Of a stretch of DNA of 35,693 bases, positions 3,001-22,277 are shown one piece after another. Where the stretch lies: NCBI RefSeq assembly GCF_024055725.1, contig NZ_JAMXMX010000043.1, forward strand, positions 1-35,693. The letters run 5' to 3'. Both the position numbers and the translations under genes were made by a program. Position 1 is the stretch's first letter; each line of letters opens with the position of its first letter. The DNA is from Actinoallomurus spadix (GTDB lineage Bacteria > Actinomycetota > Actinomycetes > Streptosporangiales > Streptosporangiaceae). The notes beneath the pieces are model-generated. The model did no database searches and was not told the origin of the DNA. It saw nothing but the letters and a program-made list of their open reading frames with translations.

Positions 3001-4148
3001 GTGAGGCGGCCGGACGCTTCGAGGCGCACGCGCACATCGACGCGCTCCGGTTCGTGCGCCTCGGTCGTGACCAGGCACACCACCGTGATGCCGAGGTTCG
3101 GGCCGGCCTCCGCGATCAGGCGGGGGACGAGCGGGGATCGGGTCCAGGCCGCGCGGGGATCGTAGTCGTTCAGCACGATGACGAGCCGCCGCCGCGGTCC
3201 CTCCTGGGCGGTCATGGACACGAGCCGCGTTCCGCGCTCCGCGCGGGCCGCCATGGCCCGGTCGAGTGCGGCCTCGATGTAGTCCGCCAGGCCGACCAGG
3301 TCCTCGGCGACCAGAGGGACGACCTCGACCCCGCGCTCGCGGGTGTCCGGTTCGTGGGCGTTCGGGAGCCACTTGACCCACTCCCACCGCGCGTCCCCGG
3401 ACGTCACCACGGCGACCTGCACGTCGTCCGGCGCGTGCAGCGTGGCGAGCTGGCACAGCATCGCGGTGGCCGCCGCCTCGGTCTCCGCGGCCGGACCCAG
3501 CAGGCTCACCACGCCGGCCCGCCCGACGTCGATCCACGCCGGTTGCCGTTCGACCGTCTTGTGCGTTTGAACGAGCTCCTCGGCGGCGTGCAGGGAATGG
3601 GCGTCGTACTCGACGGTCGGATCGGGTCGCCTGGTGGTCGTGAGGGTGATGGCCAGCGGCCCGCCTCCCACGCCGATGCGCAGTCTGAGGAAGTCGGGGT
3701 CCTCGGGTCGCCTCTCCCAGACGCGGCGCCGTCGGACCGCGATCGCCCACAACCGCTCCGGACTCGGATGCACCCACGCCGCCGCGAAGCGCTGCACCTG
3801 GGCCACCTCTCTCGCCTGCCGGCGAATCCCCGCCAGGTAGTCCAGGTAACGCTCGCGCTGGTGCTCCCTGGCCTGGCGGCTCTTCCCCCGCATCTGCATC
3901 CGGAAGCCGATGCTCAGCCCCGCCGACGTGACGATGAACAGGACGCCCAGCGCGATCATCCACTGCCGACCGGTCGAGATCAGGTACGCGGCCATGCTGA
4001 CGCTGGTCAACAACGGCAGGAGGAGCGTGAGCATGGTCGACATCCCGCTCGGCGGCGGCAACTGCGGCGGTGCCGCGATGGAGACCTTGTCCTCCGGCAC
4101 GGGCGGCGGTGCCATCCGTGCGGGGCGGTGGAAGGCGATCCTGCTCAT
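36..4148 (-). CDS. eccC: EccC, type VII secretion FtsK/SpoIIIE-type ATPase (EccCa and EccCb in one chain)
   Basis: 1370 aa, the usual size for a single-chain EccC, the motor that recognises ESX substrates and powers export through the inner-membrane complex. Two membrane helices lie near residues 39-59 and 63-82. A cytoplasmic region leads into three ATPase modules. Module 1 has Walker A GATGSGKS at 493-500 and Walker B ending in D612-E613. Module 2 has Walker A GAPQSGKST at 848-856, with Walker B reading VLVIDN (Asn after the Asp). Module 3 has GDSGSGRTS at 1151-1159, where the invariant Lys is Arg, and an acidic VVDD strand. So module 1 looks intact and module 3 is altered. ATG 4148 has only a distant GAGG; no better start is visible. 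It is the eighth gene of the minus-strand ESX operon, 75 bp after a WXG100-like gene. Confidence 0.95.
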   Translation of the reverse strand: MSRIAFHRPARMAPPPVPEDKVSIAAPPQLPPPSGMSTMLTLLLPLLTSVSMAAYLISTGRQWMIALGVLFIVTSAGLSIGFRMQMRGKSRQAREHQRERYLDYLAGIRRQAREVAQVQRFAAAWVHPSPERLWAIAVRRRRVWERRPEDPDFLRLRIGVGGGPLAITLTTTRRPDPTVEYDAHSLHAAEELVQTHKTVERQPAWIDVGRAGVVSLLGPAAETEAAATAMLCQLATLHAPDDVQVAVVTSGDARWEWVKWLPNAHEPDTRERGVEVVPLVAEDLVGLADYIEAALDRAMAARAERGTRLVSMTAQEGPRRRLVIVLNDYDPRAAWTRSPLVPRLIAEAGPNLGITVVCLVTTEAHEPERVDVRVRLEASGRLTLEGANAGLHSTVEDATVDRIAPALRSRIARSLAPLRLTGEQEQVLSQSVSLPGMLGIDVTSLDPTAAWRAPDDDDLLRVPVGVTASGEALVLDLKESAQGGIGPHGLVVGATGSGKSELLRTLVTGLSLTHSPEHLGFVLVDFKGGATFAGLTRLPHVAGLITNLADDLSLVERVRVALVGEQQRRQRLLRQAGNIDSIRDYQLKQAAGGTDADGAPLPPLPYLMIVVDEFGELLSQRSDFIDLFVQIGRVGRSLGMHLLLATQRLEEGRLRGLESHLSYRIALRTFSASESRTVIGTADAYKLPPIPGSAYLKVDESIYERFRVAHVSRLYEDPAAQQGRPKSIAPVPFALRTPPTPEDTAPEPAVTPVPGSGTTELEVVVERLAASSAPTHQVWLEPLPPRFPLDPLLAPVEVVPERGLQSQAWSAAGELKFPVAVADLPARQEQRPVVLDLTGIHGHLALVGAPQSGKSTFLRTALISAMLTHTPDELQFYCIDHGGGALHALQGAPHVSGVAGRRDTERVQRVLAEVNRLIAVRERMFQDLGIQSAADFRRRRDSGALPAGVRAADVVLVIDNWGALHAELEDATTIATDIATRGLGVGVHLIVTANRWAEIRLALRDSIPGRLELRMNDPAESEVNRQETRRLGRVPAGRGLMPPGFPFHVALPRMDGDDGLDGLAEAQQEVIDAITGSWQGAPAPRLKVLPERITVKELEEILADTSVVGNPWEDAGRGLSPTEIPIGLAQTDLHPVGLDLTQGQPHFLVFGDSGSGRTSFLRAWMRGIGRRYSPWDVRFIVIDYRRSLLDVLPAPYIGAHAGNPELAAAFVAQVAEKLKERMPPPGLTVDRLRERDWWEGPEFYLVVDDYDLVASGADRGPLAPLASFVTQGEELGFHVVLARRVSGASRSLMSDPMVGRLREFGADGLILSGDPREGVLLGDQRAAQRIPGRGLLIRRRQEPTLIHAVVDEETEPVTYDARPASAGREV

Positions 4149-4223
4149 CGGTTGGGCTGCCTCAAAGGGAGATGGTCGCGGCGGCGGACGCGGATGTGGT
4201 CCGCCGCGCGCCGGCGACCGCGA

Positions 4224-4703
4224 TCAGGACGTGAGCGGCGGGTAGTCGGCTGTGATGGCGGTCTTGTTCGTGTCCAGCACGTCCGGCGGCGGGGTGGTGT
4301 CGATGTCGAGGGGGGGTACCGCGCTGCGCCATGGCTGGGGCGGCGCGTCGAACTTGGCGGTGAACCTGTTCCAGACATCGGTGAGGCCGAACTCGGCCGC
4401 GTTGTAGTTGTGGAGCGCGGTGGCGAGCCCAGTGGCAATGGCGCTCAGCACGCCGTCGTCGGGCTTCTCGTCGCTACCGAAGATGTCGCCCATGACCGTG
4501 CGCCATCGCTTGTTGAAGTCATCCGCTTCCTGCTGAGTCTTGCCCACCCAGTCGTTGAGTGTCAGCGACTGCAGGGTGGTCGCGATTCGGGAGACGGAGT
4601 CCGCGACGTTCTGCGCGTAATCGTGCAGTGCGGTCGCCGTTTCGTGAATTCCCCACGGCCCGATCGCCATGTTCGACAGGTAGTCGTAGTCAGTGGTGGC
4701 CAT
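4224..4703 (-). CDS. WXG100-like ESX protein, 159 aa, C-terminally extended
   Basis: 159 aa. The N-terminal ~105 residues look like an ESX helical hairpin: a helix, a turn with W52-V53-G54 (a true WxG motif), a second helix, then Y100-N-A-A-E104, which fits the YxxxD/E export signal. Unlike a normal ~100-aa WXG100 protein it continues for about 55 residues, rich in Pro and Asp, with no predicted secondary structure that I can see. The start ATG follows GAGGGA by 9 nt. It sits directly before eccC and 30 bp after another WXG100-like gene, so the two are a natural heterodimer pair. Assignment rests on motif and context; it could carry a small cargo tail rather than being a plain chaperone-type partner. 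Confidence 0.75.
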   Translation of the reverse strand: MATTDYDYLSNMAIGPWGIHETATALHDYAQNVADSVSRIATTLQSLTLNDWVGKTQQEADDFNKRWRTVMGDIFGSDEKPDDGVLSAIATGLATALHNYNAAEFGLTDVWNRFTAKFDAPPQPWRSAVPPLDIDTTPPPDVLDTNKTAITADYPPLTS

Positions 4704-4733
4704 TGATGGCGTTCCCTCGTTCGAATTCGCGAC

Positions 4734-5063
4734 TTAGGCGGGCGTCACGTTCGCCGCGTTCACAGACTCGGCCTGATGGTAGTTGTCGTAGGACTTCTGC
4801 ATCCGGTCAATTATCTCCTGAAGGAGTCCCATCATTTGGGACGTGGCATTGGCGTACCACGTCTCAACCGGGTCGAGTGAGTCGTAGGCAGGTCCCTTCC
4901 AGTAGAGATTCAGATCGCTCATCTTGGACTTGATCTGCTCGAGGGTCTTGGAGATTCCGTCGTGCTCCCGCTGGACGGTGGCGATGGCGTCCGACAATGC
5001 CTGCAGGGCGATCCCGAACTCGGTGTCGCCCGCGGTCTGTCCTCCTCCGCCGGTGTCCGCCAT
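4734..5063 (-). CDS. WXG100 family protein (EsxA/EsxB-like)
   Basis: 109 aa, close to the family length. Two long amphipathic helices flank a turn with W55-K56-G57, the WxG motif. Y95-H-Q-A-E99 near the end of the second helix is the YxxxD/E export motif. The first dozen residues are Gly-rich and flexible. A GAGGAG Shine-Dalgarno lies 6 nt before the ATG. Members form helical-bundle dimers, bind EccC through the C-terminal tail and are exported folded. The adjacent 159-aa gene is its likely partner. It sits between an unrecognised 208-aa ESX-associated gene and that partner. Confidence 0.88.
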   Translation of the reverse strand: MADTGGGGQTAGDTEFGIALQALSDAIATVQREHDGISKTLEQIKSKMSDLNLYWKGPAYDSLDPVETWYANATSQMMGLLQEIIDRMQKSYDNYHQAESVNAANVTPA

Positions 5064-5134
5064 GATCTTCTCCTCAATCCGATGGTCTGAACGATCCCGG
5101 TCTGGGCCTCGGGTGACGCGGTGCCGCCGGCGTA

Positions 5135-5761
5135 TCAGCCGGTGACCCCCTTGGTCGGCGGCGCGGGGAACAGCGAGTGCCTGTCGGCGGCGGCGTAGAC
5201 CTGACCCGAGTGGTTCACGAGGGCGATGTACTCACCGAAGAGCTCGAGCGCGGCGCCGATGGCCTGCAGCGTCTTCTCCTGGGCGGGATTCATTTGCGCG
5301 GCGAATTCCTGCGCCGGTTTCGCGAAGACCGTGGGTCCCGTAGTGTTGTCGTGATGGGTCCATGTGTGCGACCCCGCATCGTAAGTATCCGACGCGGCTG
5401 TCACGGTGGAGGTCTGCCCGAAAACGGTCCCCTCCGAAGACAGCACATGCGAACGCAGGTTCTCGTACTGGGTCACCAACCCCCCGGCGGTTGTCAACAT
5501 CTTGTTGACCCCGTCACCGAGCTTTCCGAAGTTGACCGAAAAATCCTTTGCGTCGCCATCAGGAGCAGGGGGTGAACCAGCGGAATCTCCCCCATCTTGG
5601 GAGAACGTCGGGTCCGTGTTGAAGGACGGGCGGCTCGCCCAGGCGACCTTGAGCACAGGGGAGTCGGTGTTTCCCAGGTTCGGCGGAACGGCACTGTCAT
5701 CGCTGTGGTCGTTCGGGTCGAACGGGTGGCGGTCGTACTTCGAGGTGGCGGGTTTATCCAC
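5135..5761 (-). CDS. Unrecognised ESX-operon protein with YxxxD tail motif (candidate substrate)
   Basis: 208 aa with a GTG start 4 nt after an AAGGAGG Shine-Dalgarno. I do not recognise a named family. The first ~75 residues are polar, Asp/Pro-rich and probably disordered. Residues 76-125 and 150-195 look helical, separated by a His/Thr/Asp-rich segment (128-145). There is no WxG in the expected turn, but Y189-A-A-A-D193 near the C-terminus matches the ESX export motif and the second helix precedes it as in WXG100 and PE/PPE-like proteins. There is no Sec signal and no membrane helix. Lying between the AAA fusion gene and a WXG100 gene, it is most simply a larger ESX substrate or dimer partner; that role is inferred. 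Confidence 0.7.
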   Translation of the reverse strand: MDKPATSKYDRHPFDPNDHSDDSAVPPNLGNTDSPVLKVAWASRPSFNTDPTFSQDGGDSAGSPPAPDGDAKDFSVNFGKLGDGVNKMLTTAGGLVTQYENLRSHVLSSEGTVFGQTSTVTAASDTYDAGSHTWTHHDNTTGPTVFAKPAQEFAAQMNPAQEKTLQAIGAALELFGEYIALVNHSGQVYAAADRHSLFPAPPTKGVTG

Positions 5762-5800
5762 GGGTCCTCCTTCTCGTTGGCGGGTTCTCGGAAGCGGGCC

Positions 5801-8536
5801 TTAGATCGGTTGGGCCGGCGGCAGGTCCTCTGGGAGGAGGGTCGTCAGGTCGCGAGCGTCTCCGGCCGTCAGGTCGTCGGCGATCCGCATCGCGTGGCGC
5901 TCGGTCATCAACTGGAAGACCTGCCGGGCGGTCCGGCCGTTGCCGAACTGCTCGCCCCGGGGCAGGTCCTCGAAGAACCGGTGCAGCGCATCGACGGTCT
6001 CCTCGGGGCACTCGTACCGGTGCCGGTCGGCGTGGTAGCGCACGATCCGCACCAGCTCGGCGGAGTCATAGTCGTCGAACGTCAGGGTGCGGGTGAACCG
6101 CGAGCCCAGCCCCGCGTTGGAGGCCAAGAACCGCTGCATCTCCTCCGGATAGCCGGCGACGATCACCACGACGTCGTCGCGGTGGTCCTCCATCAGCTTC
6201 ACCAGCGTGGAGATCGCCTCCTGGCCGAAGTCGTTGCTCTGCCCGTGCGGGACCAGCGAGTACGCCTCGTCGATGAACAGCACCCCGCCCAGCGCGCGGC
6301 GGAACACCGCCTGCGTCTTGGGCGCGGTGTGCCCGACGTACTCCCCCACCAGGTCACCGCGGTCGGCCTCCACCAGGTGACCGCGTTCCAGCAGGCCCAG
6401 CGCGTGCAGGAACCCGCCGTACAGGCGCGCGACCGTGGTCTTGCCCGTGCCCGGGTTGCCGGCGAAGACGAGGTGACGTGACAGCGGCGGTGGCGGCAGC
6501 CCCGCCTCCTCGCGGACCTTCACCATCTGCATCAGCTTGGTCAGGCCGACGATGTCGCGCTTGACCCCGTCCAGGCCCACCAGCCGGTCCAGCTCGGCGC
6601 GCAGCTCCGCGAGCCGCTCCTCGGGCGCCTTGTCCGTCTCGTCCTCGGCGGCGGCCGCGGAGCCGCTGCCCTTGGCCGGCCCGCCCGCGGCCGTCGCCGC
6701 ACGCGCGGACGGCGCCGCGCCATCGCGCTGCGGCAGGACGGCGTCACGGACCCCCTCCGACCCGCAGTCCTCGATGACGGGCTCGGCGCCGTCGCACACG
6801 ACCAGGTCGTGGTCGCCACCGGACACGTGGCAGCGGCGCAGCACCGGGGCCGCCTCCGCCTCCACGTAGATCGCCGGATATCCGGCCTCGGAGATCCGGC
6901 AGTCCTCGAACAGGCCCGCCGCCCCCTCGGCCAGGAACACGCCGTTGCGAGCGGGCCGCTCGACGGTCAGACCCCGGACGCGCGGCCGGGCGCCGGCGCC
7001 GGCGTACAGGCCGGTGCCCTCGACGCCGGTCATCGTGCAGTCCTCGATCCGTACGGCACTGCCGGTGTCCAGGAACACGCCCGTCGACCCGGTGCGCTCA
7101 ATGCGGACGCCCTCGATGACGGCTCCGCCGCCAGGGCCCACCTGGATCCCGACCTCGGTGACGTCTCCGATCTCGCAGTCGGCCACGAACGGCCGGTGAG
7201 TCGTCCGCAGGTCGAGCGCGGTGTGCGCGCGCGACACCCGGCAGCCGCGCAGCGCCGCGTCGCCGCCCTCCACGAACACGCCCGTCATCCCGACGTCCTG
7301 GATACGCGTGTCCTCCAGGGTCGCCTCGGACCGCTCGCACACCCGGACGCCGTACTCGGGAGTGTCGCGGATCCGGCATTCGGTCAGCGCGGTGCGCGCC
7401 CCGCCGGCGAGGTGGACGGCCGTGTACGCCGTGTCGTGGATCTCGTGATCGGACAGCGCGAGGTCCGCCTCGCCGGCCGCGTACAGGCCGTTGGCCGCCG
7501 TACGGGCGATCTCGCCGCGCCGTACGCGGACGGTGGCCCCGCCGGTCACCGCGAGCCCGCTGTCGGCGACGTCGACGACGCGAACGGCGTCGAGTTCCAG
7601 CGCGCCGGTCCCGCTGACGAGGATCCCCGCCCGCCGCGTGTCGTGAATATGGCAGTCGTCGAGGACCGCCGCCGCCTCGTCCTCGGCGAGCACGCCGGCG
7701 CCCGCCGTGCGGAAGATCTCACACCGGCCGAGCAGGATCGCGTGCGACCGCGAGGAGTCGGGTTCCTCGGCCGACGCGGCGTCGCGCGGGCGCCCCCGGC
7801 CGTCGTCGGCCGGGGCGCGCCGCCCGGCGGTGCCGCTCAGGCGCAGGCCCTGGGCGCCCGTGTCGTACAGGCGGCAGTCGCGCAGCACCAGCGCGGACCG
7901 CCCCTCGGCGTGGACGGCGGCGGCGCCGGTGCGGCGCATCTCGCAGCGGGTGAACCGGCCGCGGGCGGCCCCGGTCAGGTGGGCGCCGCGGTGGCCGGTG
8001 TCCTCGATGAGGGTGCCGGTGCACTCGACGCGGGCCTCGTCGTCGGCCGTGACGCCGTCGCCGCCGGCGGACCGCACGGTGCAGTTCTCCAGCACCGTAC
8101 GGCTCGTCCCGGTCAGCCGGACCGCGGTCCCGTCGGCTCCGTGGAGGTCACAGTCCCCGAGTGTGACCACGGCGTCGCCGGTGACCTCGACCCGGCCGCC
8201 GGTGATCTCGCACCCGTGCAGCGCCGGGGTCCCGCCGCGGATGAGGACCGCGGCGTCGGACGGCGCGGCGGCCCCGAGGGTCAGGTCGCGGAGCATGACC
8301 TGGCCGCCGTGCACGGTGACGGCGGGGCCGTGGGGCGCGATGATCCGCACCGTGCCCGGCCCCTTCTCCGCGACGACGGTGACGTTCCGGTCCAGCACGA
8401 GGCTTTCGCGGTACTCGCCCGGATGCACCGAGACGACGGCGCCCTCGGCGGCGGCGCGCACGGCGGCGCCGATCGTGCTGTGCGCCCCCCATCCGGGTGC
8501 CACCCGCTCCCGTGCGGCCCTCTTCGTCAGCGCCAC
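5801..8536 (-). CDS. Right-handed beta-helix / CbxX-CfqX AAA+ ATPase fusion (EccA-like position)
   Basis: 911 aa. Residues ~10-610 are a long series of ~22-25-residue beta-helix coils, with recurring patterns such as 'C.I..T...G' and 'A.VR...I', as in pectate-lyase-fold and NosD-type repeats. A charged Ala/Gly linker (~615-640) leads to a CbxX/CfqX AAA+ domain like that of EccA. It has Walker A GNPGTGKTT from residue 693, Walker B LFIDEAY around 753-759, and a GLGSRF segment near 809-814 consistent with the arginine-finger region. Mycobacterial EccA has N-terminal TPRs instead. The GTG start is 1 nt after the eccD stop, with its GGGAGG inside the eccD end, so the two are tightly coupled. Likely a cytosolic ATPase acting on ESX substrates. 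The beta-helix role, scaffold or substrate binding, is unknown. Confidence 0.9.
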   Translation of the reverse strand: MALTKRAARERVAPGWGAHSTIGAAVRAAAEGAVVSVHPGEYRESLVLDRNVTVVAEKGPGTVRIIAPHGPAVTVHGGQVMLRDLTLGAAAPSDAAVLIRGGTPALHGCEITGGRVEVTGDAVVTLGDCDLHGADGTAVRLTGTSRTVLENCTVRSAGGDGVTADDEARVECTGTLIEDTGHRGAHLTGAARGRFTRCEMRRTGAAAVHAEGRSALVLRDCRLYDTGAQGLRLSGTAGRRAPADDGRGRPRDAASAEEPDSSRSHAILLGRCEIFRTAGAGVLAEDEAAAVLDDCHIHDTRRAGILVSGTGALELDAVRVVDVADSGLAVTGGATVRVRRGEIARTAANGLYAAGEADLALSDHEIHDTAYTAVHLAGGARTALTECRIRDTPEYGVRVCERSEATLEDTRIQDVGMTGVFVEGGDAALRGCRVSRAHTALDLRTTHRPFVADCEIGDVTEVGIQVGPGGGAVIEGVRIERTGSTGVFLDTGSAVRIEDCTMTGVEGTGLYAGAGARPRVRGLTVERPARNGVFLAEGAAGLFEDCRISEAGYPAIYVEAEAAPVLRRCHVSGGDHDLVVCDGAEPVIEDCGSEGVRDAVLPQRDGAAPSARAATAAGGPAKGSGSAAAAEDETDKAPEERLAELRAELDRLVGLDGVKRDIVGLTKLMQMVKVREEAGLPPPPLSRHLVFAGNPGTGKTTVARLYGGFLHALGLLERGHLVEADRGDLVGEYVGHTAPKTQAVFRRALGGVLFIDEAYSLVPHGQSNDFGQEAISTLVKLMEDHRDDVVVIVAGYPEEMQRFLASNAGLGSRFTRTLTFDDYDSAELVRIVRYHADRHRYECPEETVDALHRFFEDLPRGEQFGNGRTARQVFQLMTERHAMRIADDLTAGDARDLTTLLPEDLPPAQPI

Positions 8537-8537
8537 G

Positions 8538-9896
8538 TCACATCCTCCCGCCGGCCTTCATGAGCGCGTCGAACACGCCGAACACACCGGCGGCCAGCGG
8601 CACGCTCAGCGCGCCCAGGAAATTGGCGAACGGTCCCGGCCAGCTCCAGCGATCGGCGAAGTCGGCGCTCTGCAGCGAGCTACGGAAGCACAGCACCAGC
8701 CCCCACCACACCACCAGGACACCGGCGGTGAGCGTCACCAGCGGAGCCGACCAGCCGGGGACGTGCGCGCCGGTCAGGTGACCGTGCGGCCCGAAGACGT
8801 GGCCGGGCGCCCGCAGTACGAGTGCCGTCAGCCCGGTCGTGGCACCGGCCAAGACGGCGGCCACGACGGCGCGCAGCCGTGACGTGCTCGCGCGGCACAG
8901 CAGTGCCAGGCTCAGGGACAGGACGAGGCCGAGCGCGAACCAGTCATCGGCTCCGCTCAGCACGACGAGGCAGACGGCCACCACCAGGCAGCACAGCGCG
9001 TTCAGGAAGATCAGCAGTCGCTGGATCCGCCGTACGATGGCCTCGACGTCCTCCACCTGCGCGGGGCCGGGCGGCACCGCCGCCACCTGCGCCGAGATCC
9101 TCGGCAGCGCGCCGATCAGGAAGAACGTCACCACCGCGACCACCGCCGCGGCCTCGGTCCGGTCGGCGCGCAGGGCCGCGAGCGCGACCGCCGGCACCAC
9201 CACCAGCCCGCAGACCAGCTGCAGCACCATCGTGCTGATCGCCGGGACGGCCAGATAGGCCGCGAACGCCCCGATGGACGCGGTGACCACGACCGCGACC
9301 AGCGGCGCCGCGCCCGACAACGGCAACACCAGGGCCGCGAGCGCCAGGAACGGACAGGCGGCCATGGCCAGGGCCAGCCGCAGCCCCAGGGGCAGCGGCC
9401 ACGCCTTGAGCCCGGCCACCCAGGCGAGCGCCGCCGACACCACGCCGGCCGCGAACAGCACCGGCCCGAGCAGGGGCACGTCGTACGCGCCGATGCCGAG
9501 CGCGCCGGCCCCGGCCAGCGCGACCACGAGCCCGAGAGCGAGCGTCGTGTAGGCCCGCGTCCGGGCGTTCCACTCGACGCCGTCATCGTCGAGCTCGGCG
9601 ACCTGCTCGGCGATGTCGGCGGCGACCGGGCCGTCGAGCTCGCCCTGGAGCACGTCCCGCAGGTACAGCGTCTCACCGTCGAGTACACCGACGGAGCCGA
9701 GCGACTGGCCCGGCTCGAACGGGGCACCGCCGGCCGGGGCGAGCGACCAGGCCGCGGGCATCGCGTCCGAGTCCGCCTGCCCGCACATGTCGGCCAGCAT
9801 CGGGACGTACTCCGCGATCGGCGCGTGCGCCGGCACCGCCAGGTCCACGCTCCGGCGCTCGCCCACGACGGTGATCCGGCACCGCTCATCGGCCAC
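8538..9896 (-). CDS. eccD: EccD, ESX membrane channel component
   Basis: 452 aa. The first ~85 residues form a ubiquitin-like (YukD-type) domain: RCRITVVGERRSVDLAVP at the start, then the GETLYLRDV strand typical of EccD. A ~40-residue linker follows, then about 11 hydrophobic helices from residue ~115 to the end, the EccD topology. EccD dimers line the inner-membrane pore of the ESX complex. The GTG start is ~9 nt after a GAGGA Shine-Dalgarno. It sits between two WXG100-like genes (64 bp upstream) and the beta-helix/AAA gene (1 bp downstream). No EccB or EccE is visible in the window, so the machine is either completed beyond the left edge or is a minimal variant. Confidence 0.92.
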   Translation of the reverse strand: MADERCRITVVGERRSVDLAVPAHAPIAEYVPMLADMCGQADSDAMPAAWSLAPAGGAPFEPGQSLGSVGVLDGETLYLRDVLQGELDGPVAADIAEQVAELDDDGVEWNARTRAYTTLALGLVVALAGAGALGIGAYDVPLLGPVLFAAGVVSAALAWVAGLKAWPLPLGLRLALAMAACPFLALAALVLPLSGAAPLVAVVVTASIGAFAAYLAVPAISTMVLQLVCGLVVVPAVALAALRADRTEAAAVVAVVTFFLIGALPRISAQVAAVPPGPAQVEDVEAIVRRIQRLLIFLNALCCLVVAVCLVVLSGADDWFALGLVLSLSLALLCRASTSRLRAVVAAVLAGATTGLTALVLRAPGHVFGPHGHLTGAHVPGWSAPLVTLTAGVLVVWWGLVLCFRSSLQSADFADRWSWPGPFANFLGALSVPLAAGVFGVFDALMKAGGRM

Positions 9897-16170: not shown

Positions 16171-16503
16171 GTGGCCGACGTGCGGCGCTTCGGCGAGCTG
16201 CTCCACGCGACCCCCTCCCTGCGCGCACATCAGCGGGCCGCGACGGAACGCCTCATCGATGAGGCGCAGGAGGTCCTCGCCGAGCGGGCCGGCGTCGACA
16301 AGGACGCGCCGGAGGCACGCATCGCGGCGGTGGCCCTCCTCGGCCTATGGGACGTCCACGCCCGCAGCATGCACCGGCACCTCACACCCGACCGCGCTCC
16401 CGCCGAGGTCCACACCGCCATCATGGACGACATACGCCGCGCCGCCCGGGTGATCGAGTCCGGCATCGCCAGCGCGCACCTGACCGCGCCGACAGATACG
16501 TGA
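16171..16503 (+). pseudogene. TetR-family regulator remnant lacking the DNA-binding domain
   Basis: The open frame (from 16153; first usable start GTG 16171) encodes ~110 aa that look like the C-terminal ligand-binding half of a TetR regulator: RRFGELLHATPSLRAH, then DAPEARIAAVALLGLW and a final helix. The N-terminal HTH that every TetR protein needs is absent, and only 44 bp separate the frame from the SRPBCC start codon. An ATG at 16149 (MTTVAS...) in another frame could be the old start, which would fit an internal deletion. No Shine-Dalgarno precedes 16171. The stop overlaps a strong hairpin. Probably non-functional; TetR-SRPBCC divergent pairs are common, so this was probably the regulator of the broken neighbour. 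Confidence 0.7.
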
Positions 16504-16539
16504 GGGACCCCAGGCGATCTTTCGCCTGGGGTCCCTCAC
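16500..16539. terminator. Perfect 18-bp hairpin, bidirectional terminator
   Basis: Arms 16500-16517 (GTGAGGGACCCCAGGCGA) and 16522-16539 are perfect inverse complements around a TCTT loop. The left arm contains the TGA stop of the TetR remnant (16501-16503), and the hairpin lies 7 nt after the stop of the small minus-strand peptide gene. It has no U-tract on either side, like many actinobacterial terminators. It probably ends transcription from both directions. Confidence 0.85.
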
Positions 16540-16546
16540 CTCGGTA

Positions 16547-16657
16547 TTACGCGCCGAAGCCCGTGTGTGGGAACGCATTCGGCATCCACTGGAGGACCCC
16601 TATGACCGCCGGCGTGGCGACAACGAGGGTAGCCACCCAAAGTATCTTTTTCGTCAT
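16547..16657 (-). CDS. Small hydrophobic peptide (36 aa) downstream of the SARP-TPR regulator
   Basis: A 36-codon frame, ATG 16657 to TAA 16547. The peptide starts MTKK, has a hydrophobic segment over residues 5-23 (ILWVATLVVATPAVIGVLQ), and ends WMPNAFPHTGFGA. Basic start plus hydrophobic core look like an export signal or membrane anchor, leaving a ~13-residue polar/aromatic tail. It is on the same strand as the large regulator, 180 bp after its stop, and is followed within 8 nt by a strong terminator, which supports a real transcription unit. AAAGA lies ~9 nt before the ATG as a weak ribosome site. A possible 5-codon leader (TTG 16671, stop overlapping the ATG as ATGA) has GGAGG 6 nt upstream. 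I recognise no family; coding is inferred from structure and context. Confidence 0.55.
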   Translation of the reverse strand: MTKKILWVATLVVATPAVIGVLQWMPNAFPHTGFGA

Positions 16658-16670
16658 TCAAGATCTTTCA

Positions 16671-16715
16671 ATTAGGACCTCCGATCGACCATCGATCGGA
16701 CGTCCTAATCTTAGG
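16671..16715 (-). promoter_or_regulatory. Near-perfect palindrome upstream of the small peptide gene
   Basis: Arms 16671-16688 (ATTAGGACCTCCGATCGA) and 16692-16709 pair at 17 of 18 positions around a 3-nt loop. An overlapping perfect pair CCTAA-TC-TTAGG occupies 16704-16715, so the outer arm can pair in two mutually exclusive ways. In minus-strand RNA the 3' arm of the large hairpin contains GGAGG, a Shine-Dalgarno-like sequence, 20 nt before the peptide ATG. A TAAGAT that could serve as -10 box abuts the palindrome on its 5' side. It may be an operator, a translational switch, or both. Confidence 0.5.
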
Positions 16716-16837
16716 CGATCTAGCCGCCATAAGGCTCGAAATCGGGAAAAAGCTCCAGCCGTAATGGGGATGGCCGTCAGGAATCCGCGCGCGCCGACAG
16801 CCTCATCCACTTACGGTGGCGAGGCGCGGGGAAAGGC

Positions 16838-19800
16838 TCAGTGGTCGGCCAGGTCGATGAGGTCGAGGCGGACCTTCACGGCCTCGATCTCCGGAACGAT
16901 GTTCAGTTGTAAGAATAGGTCGTAGGCCTGGCGCCAGTAGATGCGCGCGGCGTCGTGCCCCTTGGTCAGGCTCGTCACGTGGGCGAGTCCGCTCAGCGAC
17001 TGGGCCTCGAGGTGGGGGTCGCCGATCTGCTGAGCGAGCCGGCGCGCGGCGCGATAATCCCGGACGGCGATCGGGTACTGCCCCATGCAGACGCGCACGT
17101 CCGCTATTCCGAGCATTCCCCGGATCTTCTCACTCGTATTGTTGATGGTCCTGGCCACGGCCACCGCGGAGCGATGACGCGTCAGCGCCTCGTCGTACTG
17201 CTCCATGCCGGTGAGCGCGAGGCCCATATTGTTCAGGACGTTCGACTCGTTGATCCGGTCCCCGGTCGCGGAGAACTCCGCGAGGGCTTCGTTGTAGTAC
17301 TTCAGCGCCGTTTCGTGGCGGCCGCGATAGCGCGCCACGTCACCGAGGTTATTGTTCAGGATCGCCTTGTTACGCCGCCCCGTCAGGGTGCGGTAGATGG
17401 CGCGTGACCTCTGAAACAGCTCGTAGGCGTCGCGGTGGTAGCCGAGCAGCAGGTGGGTGTGCGCGAGATTGCTCAGCGTCGTCGCCTCGCCGCGGATGTC
17501 ACCGATGGACTGGAAGCTCTCGAGCGCGTCCCGGAAGCTGCACAGCGCTTCTTGATGCCGCCCGACCTGTGCCTGCATCATGCCGAGGTGATTGAGGCAT
17601 TCGGCCTTCCCCCGGGGCTGGTCGGCGTCGCGGTAGAGGTCGAGGGACTCACCGAAGTAGGCGAGCGCCTCCCGGTACTTCGACGATGACCACGCCACCA
17701 GGCCGATCTGGTCCAGGGCGGCGGCCCTGAGGGCCGCGTCGCCCGCCCGGTGCGCGACCTGCTCGGCCTTGGTGGCGTTCGCGAGCGCCTCGTCCATCCG
17801 CCCCAGTCGCCACTGCACCACCGCCAGGTCGAGCCGCGCCCGGGCGACGGCCCTCGGGAGTTCGACTTCGAGGGCGACGTTCAGCGCACGCCGGTGCATC
17901 CGCTCCGCCTCCTCCCACTGGGAGACGTAGTCGAAGTACCGGGCCACCGTCTTGGCGTAGTCGATCGCGTGCGTGTTCCAGGCGTGGTCGGCGGCGTACT
18001 GGGCCAGGCGGACCAGGTTCTTGCGCTCGGCCGCGAGCCAGCTCGCCGCCGACTCCTCGTCCGGGAACGGCTGGACCGGCACGCCGCGGTCGGTGCCGGC
18101 GACCCCGGCGCGGACGTGGTGCGGGAAGAGCATGCGGTCGGCCATGTCGGCCGTCAGCAGGTAATGGTCGAGCATGCGCCCGACGGCGCGCCGCACGTCG
18201 AACTCCGGATCCTCGCGGGCCGGAAGGGCCATGGCGTACTGCCGGATCAGGTCGTGCAGCTGGAACCTCCCCGCGGCCGTCTCCTCGATCAGGTAGTGGT
18301 CGGCGAAGTCGGCGAGGGTCCGCTCGGCCTCATGGACCGGTATGCCGGCGAGGACGGCGACGGCGGCGGGCGTCACCTCGGCGACCGGGCTGAAGCCCAG
18401 GCGCCGGAAGATACGCCGCTGCGCGATCGACAGGTCGCGGTAGGAGAGGGCGAAGGTGGCGGCCAGCGCCGGGTCCTGCAGGCCGGCGATGTTCTCGTGC
18501 GGCCCGCGCAGATCCTCGGCGAGCGTCTCGAGCGAGGAGACCTGCCGATCGCGCCATCGCGTCGCGGCCAGGCGGATCGCCAGCGGCAGACCGCCGCACA
18601 GGCGCACCGCGCCGGTGACCGCGTCGGGCGCGGCGGCGGCTCCCGGCTCGGCGATCCGCGTGAACAGGGCGACGGCGTCCGCGGTCGGCAGCACGCCGAG
18701 CCGGCGGTGGTGACCGTCGATCCCGGCGAGGTGGCGGCGGCTGGTGATGATCACACGGCAGTCGGAGGTGCCGGGCAGCAGGGGGCGGACCTGATCCTCG
18801 TTCAGGGCGTCGTCGAGGACGAGCAGGGCCCGGCGCCCCTCCATCGTGTCGCGCCACAGTCCGGCTCGTGCGGCCGTCTCCCGCGGGATGTTCGTGGGCG
18901 CGAGGCCGGCCAGCTGGAGGAGTTCGGACAGCGCGGCGGCCGGGCTCTCCGGTAGGTGGTCCGCGTCGTGGCCGTGCAGGGGAAGGAAGAAGCAGCCGTC
19001 GGGGAAGTGTTCCGCGAGATCGTGGGCCGCCTTGACCGCGAGCGCGGTCTTCCCGACGCTCGGCATGCCCTCGATCAGGACCACGTCGTCCGCCGCGTCG
19101 GCTCGGGTGGCCAGCGCGGCGAGTTCTTCGGCACGCCCGGTGAACTCCGGTACGGGGGGCGGGAACCGGTCCAGCCCGGGTACGGGCTCCGAGGCCGCCC
19201 GCTGGGGCGCCGCGATCGCCGGGTCGTGCCGTCGGATGTTGCGGAACAGCGCCTGCAGGCGGGGAGACGGCGCCGCGCCGGCGTCCTCCCGGAGCCGCCG
19301 GGCGGTGGCGTGGTACAGCCCGATCGCGTCGGCCTGCCGGCCGCAGCGGTAATAGGCGATCATCAACTGTCCGACGAGGTATTCGTCCAGCGGATATCGT
19401 GCGATCAGGTTCACCAGAAGGCCGACGATCTTCGCGTGATTCCCGGCGGCGAGTTCCATGTCGATCAGTTCACGGATCATCACCCGGTAGTCCCCGTCGA
19501 GACTCGCCCGCATCTGTTCGACCCACTCGCCGGAAATTCCCGTCAGCGGTTCCGCCCGCCAGAGGCTCACCGCTTCGCGGAGCAGTTCGATCGCGTCTCT
19601 TATGGTGCCGCTCTGCCGCCTCGAGATGGCCTGTTCGTGCAGCAGGCGGGACCGGAAGACGTCGACATGCTCGGGGGCGACCTCCAGCGCGTACGCTCCG
19701 GGGGTCGCGGCCAGGCGAACGTTATCCGCGACGCCGTACTTCTTGAACCTCCTGCGCAGACGCGACAGATCGGTCTGCAGGCTCTGCCGTACCTCGGCCG

Positions 19801-19963
19801 GCGGATCCTGTCCCCACACGCGATCGATCAACGTCTCCACGGAGACCGGGCGCCCCTCGGCGAGCAAGAGAACAGCGAGGAGCAGACGCTCTTTTGCAGT
19901 CCCGAGATCCATCCGAATTCCGGTCAACCAGAATTCGATTGGCCCCAGCATCCGGAATTCCAC
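16838..19963 (-). CDS. AfsR/SARP-family regulator: OmpR-type DBD, BTAD, NB-ARC, TPR
   Basis: 1041 aa from GTG 19963, chosen because GGAGGGG precedes it and the SARP DNA-binding domain begins at once (VEFRMLGPIEFWLTG); the frame extends 172 codons upstream without homology. Order: OmpR/Trans_reg_C winged helix (~1-95), bacterial transcriptional activator domain (~100-250), NB-ARC ATPase with GMPSVGKT at 299-306 and LLVLDD as Walker B, a winged-helix segment (~490-560), then TPR repeats (~640-1020) with recurrent 'A..Y...L..F...G'. AfsR-type proteins integrate signals, often by phosphorylation, and activate secondary metabolism or development. A small peptide gene follows on the same strand, so the TPRs could bind a peptide. 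No biosynthetic cluster adjoins it. Confidence 0.93.
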   Translation of the reverse strand: MEFRMLGPIEFWLTGIRMDLGTAKERLLLAVLLLAEGRPVSVETLIDRVWGQDPPAEVRQSLQTDLSRLRRRFKKYGVADNVRLAATPGAYALEVAPEHVDVFRSRLLHEQAISRRQSGTIRDAIELLREAVSLWRAEPLTGISGEWVEQMRASLDGDYRVMIRELIDMELAAGNHAKIVGLLVNLIARYPLDEYLVGQLMIAYYRCGRQADAIGLYHATARRLREDAGAAPSPRLQALFRNIRRHDPAIAAPQRAASEPVPGLDRFPPPVPEFTGRAEELAALATRADAADDVVLIEGMPSVGKTALAVKAAHDLAEHFPDGCFFLPLHGHDADHLPESPAAALSELLQLAGLAPTNIPRETAARAGLWRDTMEGRRALLVLDDALNEDQVRPLLPGTSDCRVIITSRRHLAGIDGHHRRLGVLPTADAVALFTRIAEPGAAAAPDAVTGAVRLCGGLPLAIRLAATRWRDRQVSSLETLAEDLRGPHENIAGLQDPALAATFALSYRDLSIAQRRIFRRLGFSPVAEVTPAAVAVLAGIPVHEAERTLADFADHYLIEETAAGRFQLHDLIRQYAMALPAREDPEFDVRRAVGRMLDHYLLTADMADRMLFPHHVRAGVAGTDRGVPVQPFPDEESAASWLAAERKNLVRLAQYAADHAWNTHAIDYAKTVARYFDYVSQWEEAERMHRRALNVALEVELPRAVARARLDLAVVQWRLGRMDEALANATKAEQVAHRAGDAALRAAALDQIGLVAWSSSKYREALAYFGESLDLYRDADQPRGKAECLNHLGMMQAQVGRHQEALCSFRDALESFQSIGDIRGEATTLSNLAHTHLLLGYHRDAYELFQRSRAIYRTLTGRRNKAILNNNLGDVARYRGRHETALKYYNEALAEFSATGDRINESNVLNNMGLALTGMEQYDEALTRHRSAVAVARTINNTSEKIRGMLGIADVRVCMGQYPIAVRDYRAARRLAQQIGDPHLEAQSLSGLAHVTSLTKGHDAARIYWRQAYDLFLQLNIVPEIEAVKVRLDLIDLADH

Positions 19964-20154
19964 CGGACCCCTCCATGCGGTTATTCCCCTCCGACTTTCA
20001 CTGTTTCCTCCCTCCCTTCCCTGAAACGGGGGAACAACTGTCCAGCCTCGGTCAACGCGCCCCGGCCGCCCGCTTCCCGCCGCCGTACCCCCGGGTCGTG
20101 GCCAGAATTCCACCCCGTTTTCCGCCAGCGGCGTGTCCGATGGTCGACTCGCGA

Positions 20155-20171
20155 GGTGGTGAGGGACCACC
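20155..20171. promoter_or_regulatory. Small hairpin just upstream of DUF397
   Basis: GGTGGT and ACCACC are perfect inverse complements around a GAGGG loop, 20 nt before the DUF397 start and just 5' of its AAAGGGGG Shine-Dalgarno. It lies in the 228-bp divergent gap shared with the SARP-TPR regulator. It may be an operator or a 5'-UTR hairpin; weak evidence. Confidence 0.3.
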
Positions 20172-20191
20172 CCGCCGAGAAAGGGGGCTCC

Positions 20192-20401
20192 ATGAGCGAG
20201 GTCGGGCAGCGGATGATGCCGGAGCCGGGCGAGTTCCGGCGCGCCTGTAACTACGGCTCGTGCGTGGAGGTGGCGATCACCGAGGTGGTGGCGGTCCGCG
20301 ACTCGAAGGCCGGGCAGGACGGACCGGTCCTGTGGTTCAGCCGCTCGGAGTGGGAGGCCTTCGTGGCCGCGGTCAAGGCCGGCCGGTTCAGCGTCGGCTG
20401 A
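20192..20401 (+). CDS. DUF397 family protein
   Basis: 69 aa. The sequence 'FRRACNYGSCVEVA', then 'VAVRDSKAGQDGPVLWFSRSEWEAFVAAVKAGRF', is the DUF397 signature: a Cys-containing N-terminal strand, the conserved VRDSK, then the W..F..G.+ end. The ATG at 20192 follows AAAGGGGG by 5 nt. DUF397 proteins are found almost only in actinobacteria, usually beside an XRE/DUF5753 regulator as in the whiJ-type loci of Streptomyces, where the small protein is thought to antagonise the regulator. That partner is here, convergent, 80 bp downstream. Confidence 0.93.
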   Translation: MSEVGQRMMPEPGEFRRACNYGSCVEVAITEVVAVRDSKAGQDGPVLWFSRSEWEAFVAAVKAGRFSVG

Positions 20402-20481
20402 CGCGGGCGCGACCGGAACCACGGTGCGGACGCCGACGGCCGCCGGCGTCCGCACCCGGGCCTGGGCGGTCGGGAGCACGC

Positions 20482-21366
20482 TCAGCCCTCGATGGTCCGC
20501 AGCTCGGCGGTCAGCGTACGCAGGAGCGCCTGCGCCTCGTCACCGAACACCGCGGCCTTCCGCAGAGTGGACCAGCGGTTCCGGTAGAGGGCCACGGCGT
20601 CGGCCTCCGTGACGGTGAGCTCGGCGTGGTCGAGTTCGATCAGGACGAAGGCGTCATCGTCGGCGTCTCCGTCGTCGAGGATCGAGAACCCCTGGAGGTA
20701 CGGCGCCTCCGCCTCGGCCGACAGGGGGATCAGCCCGATCGAGACGTTGTCCAGCGTGCTCACCGTCGCGATCCGGTCCAGCTGGGCGATCGCGAGGCGC
20801 GGCGGACCGGGACGCCACCGAAGCGCCGCCTCCGTGATGAGGAACTCGAAATGCCGGTCGTCGTCCTTGTACAGCGCGAGCTGGCGGTCCAGCCGGGCGG
20901 CCACCGCGGCGGCGACGCTCGTCTGGGGCACGCTCGCCTTGAACATCGCGAACACGCGCTGCGCGTACCCGGGTGTCTGCAGCAGGCCGGGCACGAGCGC
21001 CGGCTGGAAGACGCGCACGCGCCGGGCCGTCTCCTCGCGCTCGCGCGCGTCGTCCTGAAGCTGGTGCCGGCCTTCGATCGCCGCCTGCCAGGTCTCCACC
21101 TCGGTGCGGGCGACGTCGGCGAGCACGTCGCGCAGGCGCTCGATCTCGTCGGCCGCGCCGACCGCCTGAGCCCAAGCGGTGATCTCCGTGGCGGAGGGCT
21201 GCGCGGCGCCGGCCTCGATCCGCGAGACCTTGGACTGGCTGATGCCGATCCGCTTCGCCAGATCCCGCCCGCTCATCCCGCTCATCTCACGGAGGACGCG
21301 GAGCTCACCGGCCAGCCGCCGCCGCTTGTCGTACGCGGGGTCACGCCCGCCACCGGCCACGGCCAT
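20482..21366 (-). CDS. XRE-family regulator with DUF5753 domain
   Basis: 294 aa from ATG 21366 (GAGG 3 nt upstream; the frame runs 31 codons further upstream without an obvious start or homology). An N-terminal Cro/CI-type helix-turn-helix occupies residues ~18-75 (LAGELRVLREMSGMSGRDLAKRIGISQSKVSRIEAG). DUF5753 follows from ~110 to 285, with the family's 'FQPALVPGLLQTPGYAQRVF' and 'EAALRWRPG' motifs. This is the WhiJ-like architecture that acts with a small DUF397 protein, here convergent and adjacent. Such pairs affect development and secondary metabolism in Streptomyces, though ligands and most targets are unknown. Confidence 0.94.
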   Translation of the reverse strand: MAVAGGGRDPAYDKRRRLAGELRVLREMSGMSGRDLAKRIGISQSKVSRIEAGAAQPSATEITAWAQAVGAADEIERLRDVLADVARTEVETWQAAIEGRHQLQDDAREREETARRVRVFQPALVPGLLQTPGYAQRVFAMFKASVPQTSVAAAVAARLDRQLALYKDDDRHFEFLITEAALRWRPGPPRLAIAQLDRIATVSTLDNVSIGLIPLSAEAEAPYLQGFSILDDGDADDDAFVLIELDHAELTVTEADAVALYRNRWSTLRKAAVFGDEAQALLRTLTAELRTIEG

Positions 21367-21503
21367 CACCTCAACCCGGGTTCGACGTCGATGCACGATG
21401 GAGCAGAATCTGTCAGAGGCAGTTAGAGATACCCCCAGATAGCAGGGAGAGTCAACCACCCCACCGCGATCCCGTCAACGCGGCGACGATCCCGCTTTCC
21501 TGG

Positions 21504-21591
21504 TATAACCTCCCCACCAACCCACCATCATCCAGCGCTCCCACCGAGCTCTGGTGATTCAAAATGATTCACATCAAGTCAGGAGGATCTG
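21504..21591 (+). promoter_or_regulatory. Candidate promoter and direct repeat upstream of the cyclase-like gene
   Basis: TATAAC at 21504-21509 resembles a -10 box but no good -35 is visible. TGATTCA occurs twice (21555-21561 and 21565-21571) exactly 10 bp apart, one helical turn, in an AT-rich patch unlike its surroundings. AGGAGG ends 5 nt before the start at 21592. The repeat could be a regulator site; the binder is unknown. Confidence 0.35.
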
Positions 21592-22248
21592 ATGTCTCGC
21601 TCCAAGCACCTCCCCCGCCATCGGAGCATCATCGCCGTCGACGTCGAGGGGTCGACCCGGCTGACCGACCCGTCCAAGGGGTACCTGCGCAGGTCGATGT
21701 ACGACCTGTTCGAGCGCGCCCTGGCGGCGGGCGGGCTCACCGCGTCGTACCGGGACCCCCTCCTCGACCGGGGCGACGGCGTGTGCGCCCTGATCCATCC
21801 GGACGACCAAGCCCCCAAGACCGTGCTGCTCGACACGGTCGTCCCGACCTTGGGCACCCTCCTCGCCGAGCACAACCGCCGTCACCCCGAACGCCGGTTC
21901 CGGCTGCGTACGGTCGTCCACGCCGGGGAGGTGACGTTCGACGACCACGGGTGCTTCGGCGAAGCCCTCGACGTGGCCTTCCGGCTCCTGAACGCCGAGG
22001 CGGTGAAGCGGATCCTGGACGACAGCGACGCCCCGATGGTGCTCGTGGTCTCCGATGACCTGCACCGCTGCGTCGTACGGCACGACTATGACGGCATCGA
22101 CCCGAAGGTGTTCCTCCCTCTGGTGCTGCCGCACACCTCGCACCCGGCGCGTTCCGCGTGGGTGCGAGTGTTCAACACGTCCCAGGGGAGGCCGGAGCGC
22201 CCGTGGGCCCCGGTCACGCGACTCGAGGACCACCGGCGAGGCGCCTGA
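21592..22248 (+). CDS. Stand-alone class III nucleotidyl cyclase-like protein
   Basis: 218 aa; ATG 21592 with AGGAGG 5 nt upstream. It is a single cyclase-homology domain with no membrane segment or sensor. 'IIAVDVEGSTRL' supplies the first metal Asp (D17) and 'DRGDGVCAL' the second (D62), as in adenylate/guanylate cyclases. 'VVHAGEV' matches the usual hydrophobic-H-x-G-E-V turn. In 'GEALDVAFRLLNA' the transition-state Asn is replaced by D127, while R131 is kept. Metal binding thus looks intact and the active site altered, so it may make a cyclic nucleotide, act on another substrate, or be a non-catalytic sensor. Transcribed alone; its neighbours are a divergent XRE gene and a convergent MarR gene. 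Confidence 0.75.
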   Translation: MSRSKHLPRHRSIIAVDVEGSTRLTDPSKGYLRRSMYDLFERALAAGGLTASYRDPLLDRGDGVCALIHPDDQAPKTVLLDTVVPTLGTLLAEHNRRHPERRFRLRTVVHAGEVTFDDHGCFGEALDVAFRLLNAEAVKRILDDSDAPMVLVVSDDLHRCVVRHDYDGIDPKVFLPLVLPHTSHPARSAWVRVFNTSQGRPERPWAPVTRLEDHRRGA

Positions 22249-22277
22249 CCCACGGAGGACGCCCGCGCCCCGCCCCC

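Follow-up and report, generated by a model that had tools for sequence, protein, structure and literature searches.

Within the window, by which we mean the whole 35,693-nucleotide stretch analysed (Actinoallomurus spadix, assembly GCF_024055725.1, contig NZ_JAMXMX010000043.1, positions 1 to 35,693), a very small gene lies downstream of, and on the same strand as, the gene for a large regulator of the AfsR type, and we conclude that the small gene probably codes for a precursor whose short linear peptide would act as the cognate ligand of the adjacent regulator. The pairing of an AfsR-type regulator with a peptide gene is well supported, because the small frame is kept beside a close orthologue of the regulator and a short motif recurs in the corresponding position beside 20 of 21 related orthologues. 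Comparison of sequences thus establishes the gene pairing, the conservation of the frame and the co-phylogeny of peptide and regulator, of which a private peptide signal for the neighbouring regulator would be the simplest reading.

The first-pass annotation had described a 1041-residue SARP–NB-ARC–TPR regulator with a 36-codon frame after it on the same strand, and the coordinates and Pfam domains bear this out. The regulator gene (16838..19963, − strand, GTG start) matches Trans_reg_C, BTAD, NB-ARC and six stretches of TPR_12, which is the domain order of the large SARPs of AfsR type (Trans_reg_C, BTAD, NB-ARC/NOD, TPR). The AlphaFold2 model, built from an alignment of 15 sequences (mean predicted local distance difference test score, pLDDT, 88), places an array of helical hairpins between about residue 640 and the C terminus. 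In a profile search the closest solved structures were the AfsR chains (8k60, 8jke), followed by designed TPRs, EmbR and the TPRs of LGN/Pins, and a Foldseek search with the whole model placed 6mfv, a STAND protein with a TPR sensor, at the top, then AfsR and LGN/Pins complexes. LGN/Pins are thus the nearest natural TPRs, and many of them have been solved with bound partners, which counts in favour of a ligand for this regulator. It is not AfsR proper (512.1 bits with the NCBIfam AfsR equivalog NF053617 against a cut-off of 1430), and its nearest NCBIfam models include HaaT and the FxSxx-COOH system protein, both below their cut-offs. The peptide frame (16547..16657, − strand, ATG start) begins 180 nt past the regulator stop and has the predicted product MTKKILWVATLVVATPAVIGVLQWMPNAFPHTGFGA, that is MTKK, a hydrophobic segment and the tail QWMPNAFPHTGFGA. 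Judged by eye, it has a basic N terminus and a hydrophobic segment and no clear cleavage site.

Eight genomes of the genus, the window's own included, were searched and gave one close orthologue of the regulator, in genome G002 (locus L011, 79% identity); the next match in the genus was 41% identical and no other match above 42% was found among the 250 family genomes searched. Downstream of the G002 orthologue lies a 28-codon frame (L011:4724-4810), with AGAAAGAAGG before its ATG, whose product is MKAKLFMAGFAALALLQWMPNGVPHVSA, and the two peptides have LQWMPNxxPH in common. When the window and the G002 locus were compared by blastn a single block was obtained (window 16835-22251, 77%), which ends at the regulator stop codon, three bases past it, so that the conserved core lies beyond the end of the DNA similarity. 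With the window 36-mer as query, tblastn restricted to the 520 nt downstream of the G002 orthologue matched residues 9–31 at 52% identity (E 1.9e-7, with composition statistics and low-complexity filter off), and against the whole 11-Mb G002 genome the peptide match had an E value of 0.027. The proposed signal, or most of one, is LQWMPNAFPH in the window (codons 16565..16594, − strand), with five residues after it before the C terminus. The earlier suggestion had been that the tail or a piece of it is the ligand, and it is a piece, LQWMPNxxPH, that has been kept as a unit and not the tail as a whole. By eye, the core DNA of the two loci differs by an inserted base and, after it, a deleted one, which restores the frame, so that PH is kept in both. 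Between the two regulators the TPR region is the best-conserved domain (0.84, compared with 0.81 for SARP and 0.75 for NOD). Taken by itself this QWMPN class, with its two genomes, is suggestive rather than conclusive, and here a conserved DNA element may account for the similarity in place of a coding frame, because the two cores are nearly identical as DNA too.

The second and larger set of observations comes from Actinomadura (g38), where orthologues of another regulator, that of locus L049, were found in 21 of 65 genomes at 61–100% identity. A small precursor frame containing [VI]HMT follows the regulator in 20 of these 21, the exception (L151) having, by eye, a different sequence at the precursor position. 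Together with the G002 orthologue this answers, in favour of the earlier proposal, the test on which it had been staked, namely whether the frame survives beside orthologous regulators. The VHMT precursors are 26–64 residues long and start 96–356 nt past the regulator stop (with ambiguous start codons in L147 and L149), and their N termini are basic, hydrophobic and, by eye, mostly Sec-like. In 16 of the 20 the motif is the exact C-terminal end; there are two exact copies of VHMT in five precursors (L137, L146, L147, L153 and L154), of which L137 also has a VHST, and in L149 and L152 a single VHMT is accompanied by an altered copy (VHLT and VHTT respectively). In L143 and L150 AWA immediately precedes the terminal VHMT, and a cut by an ordinary signal peptidase after AWA would free the tetrapeptide. 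The remainder of the precursors has diverged (median pairwise identity 0.32) and the hydrophobic part drifts. Code for [VI]HMT occurs 25 times in the 520-nt regions downstream of the 21 regulators and is absent from the rest of the same loci (243,712 nt, both strands). The V, H and T codons of the motif vary synonymously and the sole amino-acid change is V to I, twice. A conserved DNA element in place of a coding frame can be ruled out for this class, since the DNA upstream of the precursors does not align and the codons vary synonymously. The arrangement in this clade is therefore strong evidence that the small frames are coding.

The wider occurrence of such frames was examined with a fixed filter (Shine–Dalgarno duplex energy of −4 or lower, a hydrophobic 9-mer of at least 1.9, 11–66 residues, start no more than 380 nt from the regulator stop). 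Frames passing it were found at 63 of 145 distinct regulator ends compared with 10–22 in ten dinucleotide shuffles, and 42 of the ends had signal-like frames compared with 4–12, although it should be noted that many of the 145 loci were fetched as orthologues of positives and that smaller sets give fairer counts. One such set, drawn from the genus and family genome searches (loci for 29 of the 45 non-window places of the family search, plus L016), consists of 30 homologues of at least 37% identity, of which 15 pass and nine are signal-like; in another, a wider scan of relatives' contigs (the 80 best of 500 relatives, six being dropped as duplicates or for want of a stop), 23 of 74 pass. For comparison, 21 of 277 other gene ends of the same loci pass, seven of them signal-like. 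Inspection by eye of 23 loci that fail the filter added L039 (IMMG) and L066, L068, L070 and L162 (C[IM]x); the other 18 did not look positive.

Besides QWMPN (the window and L011) and VHMT (the Actinomadura orthologues of L049), the precursors include an IMMG class (L040 with IMMG twice plus IIMG, L043 with IMMG twice, L039 with one copy and L057 with MMMG twice), an FQMI class (L032, L037 and L038) and, in Streptomyces, the TCIAY and C[IM]P[STY] (CIPS/CMPY) classes. When the classes, labelled by eye, were mapped onto a tree of 100 regulators 21 changes were needed compared with a mean of 51 for shuffled labels, a figure that near-copies among the rows make more favourable to clustering, suggesting that peptide class largely follows regulator phylogeny. 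Seven of the rows labelled as having no peptide are duplicates of labelled rows (L056, L058, L059, L136, L139, L140 and L146), and the five loci added by eye also stand in the tree as having none. A single branch separates TCIAY from the rest of the tree, and the same is true of FQMI and of QWMPN; the MMG label (three rows) does not cluster and VHMT needs six changes. The sole plasmid match examined, regulator L170 in a plasmid-collection record of Streptomyces sp. BHT-5-2 (42.6% identity to L082), is followed by a frame reading MKKTIYLATMVLVALACIPSVTYGG... (MKKTIYLATMVLVALACIPSV..), with the CIPS core expected for its clade. A shared core motif of width 6 across the classes scored 95.7 compared with 67–73 for block-shuffled peptides, a result that carries little weight because the 30 test peptides were chosen by the filter plus eye. 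On balance we lean, somewhat beyond an even chance, towards a broad system in the Actinomycetota in which SARP–STAND regulators would each read a clade-specific peptide encoded downstream (QWMPN, VHMT, IMMG, FQMI, TCIAY, CIPS/CMPY). These peptides would be variants of one ancestral core (aromatic/Cys/His, then Met/Ile, then Pro/Thr/Ala/Met) and the missing inducers of a large subgroup of AfsR-type proteins with TPR sensors. Two further observations concern Streptomyces loci. The precursors of L094 and L161 have a common tail, NHLPS[AV]LPYS, and different N termini, so the far C terminus may also be of importance in their class, and the regulators of L067 and L074, for which no peptide was labelled, are both followed by a short frame, MFTR[HL]SVFL.

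A processed signal is favoured because selection acts on a motif of 4–10 residues, because the motif is repeated within precursors and because the hydrophobic part drifts. In the scheme that we propose the regulator and peptide genes, as the comparisons indicate, are inherited as a pair. The hydrophobic N-terminal segment, which is Sec-like in most VHMT precursors and less clearly so in the window, would insert the precursor into the membrane or export it across, and a signal peptidase or intramembrane protease would free the conserved segment (about QWMPNxxPH in the window, VHMT in Actinomadura). The peptide would then build up outside and be re-imported by an oligopeptide ABC importer; all eight genomes tested encode oligopeptide-binding proteins (PF00496), with ten matches in the window's own genome, and a precedent in an actinomycete for taking up a signalling oligopeptide from outside is the BldK importer of Streptomyces coelicolor with its bld261 signal, which differs in that no cytoplasmic receptor for the signal is named in the available part of the source (PMC11303876). 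Inside the cell, by analogy with work on AfsR and MalT/PH0952, the peptide might bind the concave face of the TPR superhelix, lifting the autoinhibition of the SARP domain by NB-ARC and TPR, upon which the SARP domain would activate target promoters, possibly including the peptide's own. In AfsR the NOD and TPR parts inhibit the SARP domain and ATP relieves the inhibition (PMC10936776), and inducer binding is believed to open STAND proteins that have TPR sensors step by step (PMC6468293).

Such signalling would resemble that of the RRNPP (RRNPPA) systems of Firmicutes (Rap-Phr, Rgg-SHP, NprR, PlcR, PrgX, AimR), in which a cytoplasmic TPR regulator likewise has a small gene for an exportable propeptide beside it. 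There the propeptide is exported, cut, re-imported through the oligopeptide permease and bound by the receptor, the mature signal is typically C-terminal and some propeptides hold tandem copies of it (PMC11343458). The window, L011 and the VHMT loci all have the adjacent small propeptide gene, and in the VHMT class the conserved part usually lies, as noted, at the C-terminal end. The regulator does not belong to the RRNPP family itself: it differs in phylum and architecture, being a STAND protein of 1041 residues with Trans_reg_C, BTAD, NB-ARC and TPR domains where the range used by RRNPP_detector is a TPR protein of 250–500 residues (PMC10075063), and the pairing here is known from sequence comparison. 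The survey in PMC10075063 covered Firmicutes and viruses only, and a text search of the available text of two other RRNPP papers (PMC9765709, PMC12700828) found no mention of actinobacteria. On the preferred reading the regulator and its peptide would signal much as RRNPP systems do, through an unrelated STAND receptor.

Several points weigh against the peptide as ligand. The QWMPN class is known from two genomes only, and the window's sister clade (14 tree rows, 13 distinct regulators) has no convincing peptide, the one frame there that passes the filter (L045) being judged a chance one; a seven-row Streptomyces clade likewise lacks a clear peptide, with L086 alone passing. The window's own frame fails the filter, the energy of the duplex between its pre-ATG region and the anti-Shine–Dalgarno sequence being −3.7 kcal/mol, which narrowly misses the cut, and L016, L032 and L039 are missed too; a clean AxA cleavage site is not visible by eye in the window peptide. 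The 15 passing frames among the 30 nearer homologues include at least two that look like chance (L041 and L045), distant paralogues of the genus (31–36% identical plus one partial match at 40%) are at background with 2 of 14 passing and none signal-like, and GC-matched control ends pass slightly more often (4 of 40, two signal-like) than the 21 of 277. No RRNPP receptor was among the best 50 of 377 Foldseek matches to the whole regulator model, and within the VHMT and TCIAY classes it is the TPR domain that is conserved least, the opposite of what is seen between the window and L011. The 11-bp SARP-box signal, which would point to autoregulation, amounts to a hint in the VHMT class, and in the window it is confined to the palindrome. 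An offset of 11 is the commonest repeat spacing in VHMT intergenic DNA (4.9 per 1000 compared with 0.2–3.5 for other offsets) and is not the commonest downstream of all 145 loci. It may be recorded here that five sister-clade loci (L028, L029, L031, L033 and L034) show, by eye, SARP-box-like direct repeats of about (T)GCAAG/GTCAAG some 11 bp apart 3′ of the regulator. Lastly, two other interpretations would fit the gene order too.

The first of these, that the small gene is an output of the regulator and not its ligand, encodes a secreted bioactive peptide (an antimicrobial or the precursor of a ribosomally synthesized and post-translationally modified peptide) and has a SARP-activated promoter, fares best among the alternatives and is in our view unlikely. 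SARPs do activate antibiotic biosynthesis (PMC10936776), a methyltransferase gene lies near the pair in L061 and a MacB/FtsX-type transporter gene in L057, and NB-ARC–TPR proteins are already known beside peptide precursors, the HaaT and FxSxx-COOH models being, as described above, among the nearest to the regulator in sequence. The FxSxx-COOH and related actinobacterial systems with AP-ATPase–TPR proteins likewise combine a small, fast-diverging precursor whose C-terminal peptide is more conserved with an NB-ARC-type ATPase and TPRs, but they come with a metallopeptidase, to which FxSxx adds a radical SAM enzyme, and the available part of the account of these peptide-processing systems does not mention a SARP domain (PMC7159879). 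Against an output of this kind, no match to radical SAM, lanthionine synthetase, YcaO or zincin was found in the 19 other window frames or in 26 neighbour frames from nine relative loci, which are part of the neighbours, and the conserved parts are just 4–10 residues long and are repeated in several precursors.

The second, marginally less probable again, is that the gene encodes a small membrane protein or an intracellular effector acting downstream of the regulator, as in the afsR–afsS pair of Streptomyces coelicolor. The product of afsS is small and encoded beside afsR. AfsR has the same SARP–NOD–TPR order as the window regulator (which falls below the AfsR equivalog cut-off) and its neighbouring gene afsS is its direct target (PMC10936776). 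The window precursor and several others are, moreover, mostly one hydrophobic segment. In the VHMT class, however, it is the hydrophobic part that drifts and the motif at or near the C terminus that is kept, sometimes in two copies with variable spacers; a structural membrane protein is disfavoured because the reverse pattern of conservation would be expected. That the peptide is a signal read by some other receptor, such as a separate nearby NB-ARC–TPR protein, is improbable: genes for a second NB-ARC–TPR protein lacking the SARP domain do lie near the pair in four loci (L056:8566-10917, L057:8374-10635, L061:9-1910 and L082:2351-4849), but none was found among the window frames scanned beyond the regulator itself, and the peptide class tracks the SARP regulator. 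A chance frame without function, to which the weak Shine–Dalgarno sequence and the two genomes of the window's class might point, has next to no likelihood left, being largely refuted by conservation of the core past the end of DNA similarity (the restricted-search match above) and having related peptide classes against it.

The peptide gene, which we still read as encoding the probable ligand, is flanked by several DNA elements. A GAAAG at 16665..16669 (− strand) is the candidate weak ribosome-binding site. Between the regulator and the peptide gene there is a long inverted repeat or hairpin (16670..16710, − strand; two 9-bp stems, 3-nt loop; z-score −6.8), which is not conserved in L011 (z-score −0.66). 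Within its stem, GGAGG (16678-16682, − strand) stands six bases before a possible five-codon mini-ORF (open reading frame), TTG AAA GAT CTT GAA TGA (16654..16671, − strand), whose stop overlaps the peptide ATG, and this arrangement could provide translational coupling or control of the peptide gene. On the 3′ side of the peptide gene lies what had been called a perfect terminator (16500..16539); the 18-bp stem is indeed perfect (4-nt loop, z-score −8.8 against shuffles), but no run of U follows it. The next frame (16171-16503, + strand) is convergent and has a sub-threshold TetR_C_14 match, whereas in G002 the gene beyond the peptide gene encodes a low-molecular-weight phosphatase. A leader peptide or attenuator was ruled out, as the frame lies 3′ of the regulator and the next frame is convergent.

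Other neighbouring genes were noted. Upstream of the window regulator, inside the DNA block common to G002, are a divergent DUF397 gene and an XRE–DUF5753 gene (20192-21459), and further away (36-9896, − strand) are type VII secretion-like genes encoding an FtsK/SpoIIIE ATPase, an AAA/beta-helix protein and a YukD–EccD protein. The gene for a conserved protein of about 400 residues (L056:3546-4760, − strand, and homologues) is a neighbour of the regulator gene in 68 of the 158 regulator loci, counted with flanks of 1.5–5 kb and with duplicates, and it was not found in the window. The members scanned had no Pfam, NCBIfam or PDB sequence match, and the model of the protein (pLDDT 83) has a predicted GT-B fold resembling GT-B enzymes, among them the teichoic acid polymerase TagF. 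This TagF-like protein may be a target of the regulator.

Actinomycetes rank among the main sources of antibiotics, whose production is under the control of large SARP regulators. According to the AfsR structural paper, whether an inducer binds the TPR sensor of AfsR stays elusive (PMC10936776), and signals in the Actinomycetota are, in the RRNPP survey, typically small molecules made by enzymes (PMC10075063). A literature search of titles and the starts of abstracts, with most subscription papers outside it, gave no description of a peptide partner for SARP–NB-ARC–TPR regulators. The downstream genes for exportable peptides found here beside antibiotic-type regulators of soil actinomycetes look like an undescribed peptide signalling system. 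If it is real, cytoplasmic sensing of peptides by TPRs would also be shown for a receptor whose scaffold differs from that of RRNPP, and if the inducers are short peptides of known sequence they could be synthesized and tested at once, and silent regulators might be switched on without genetics.

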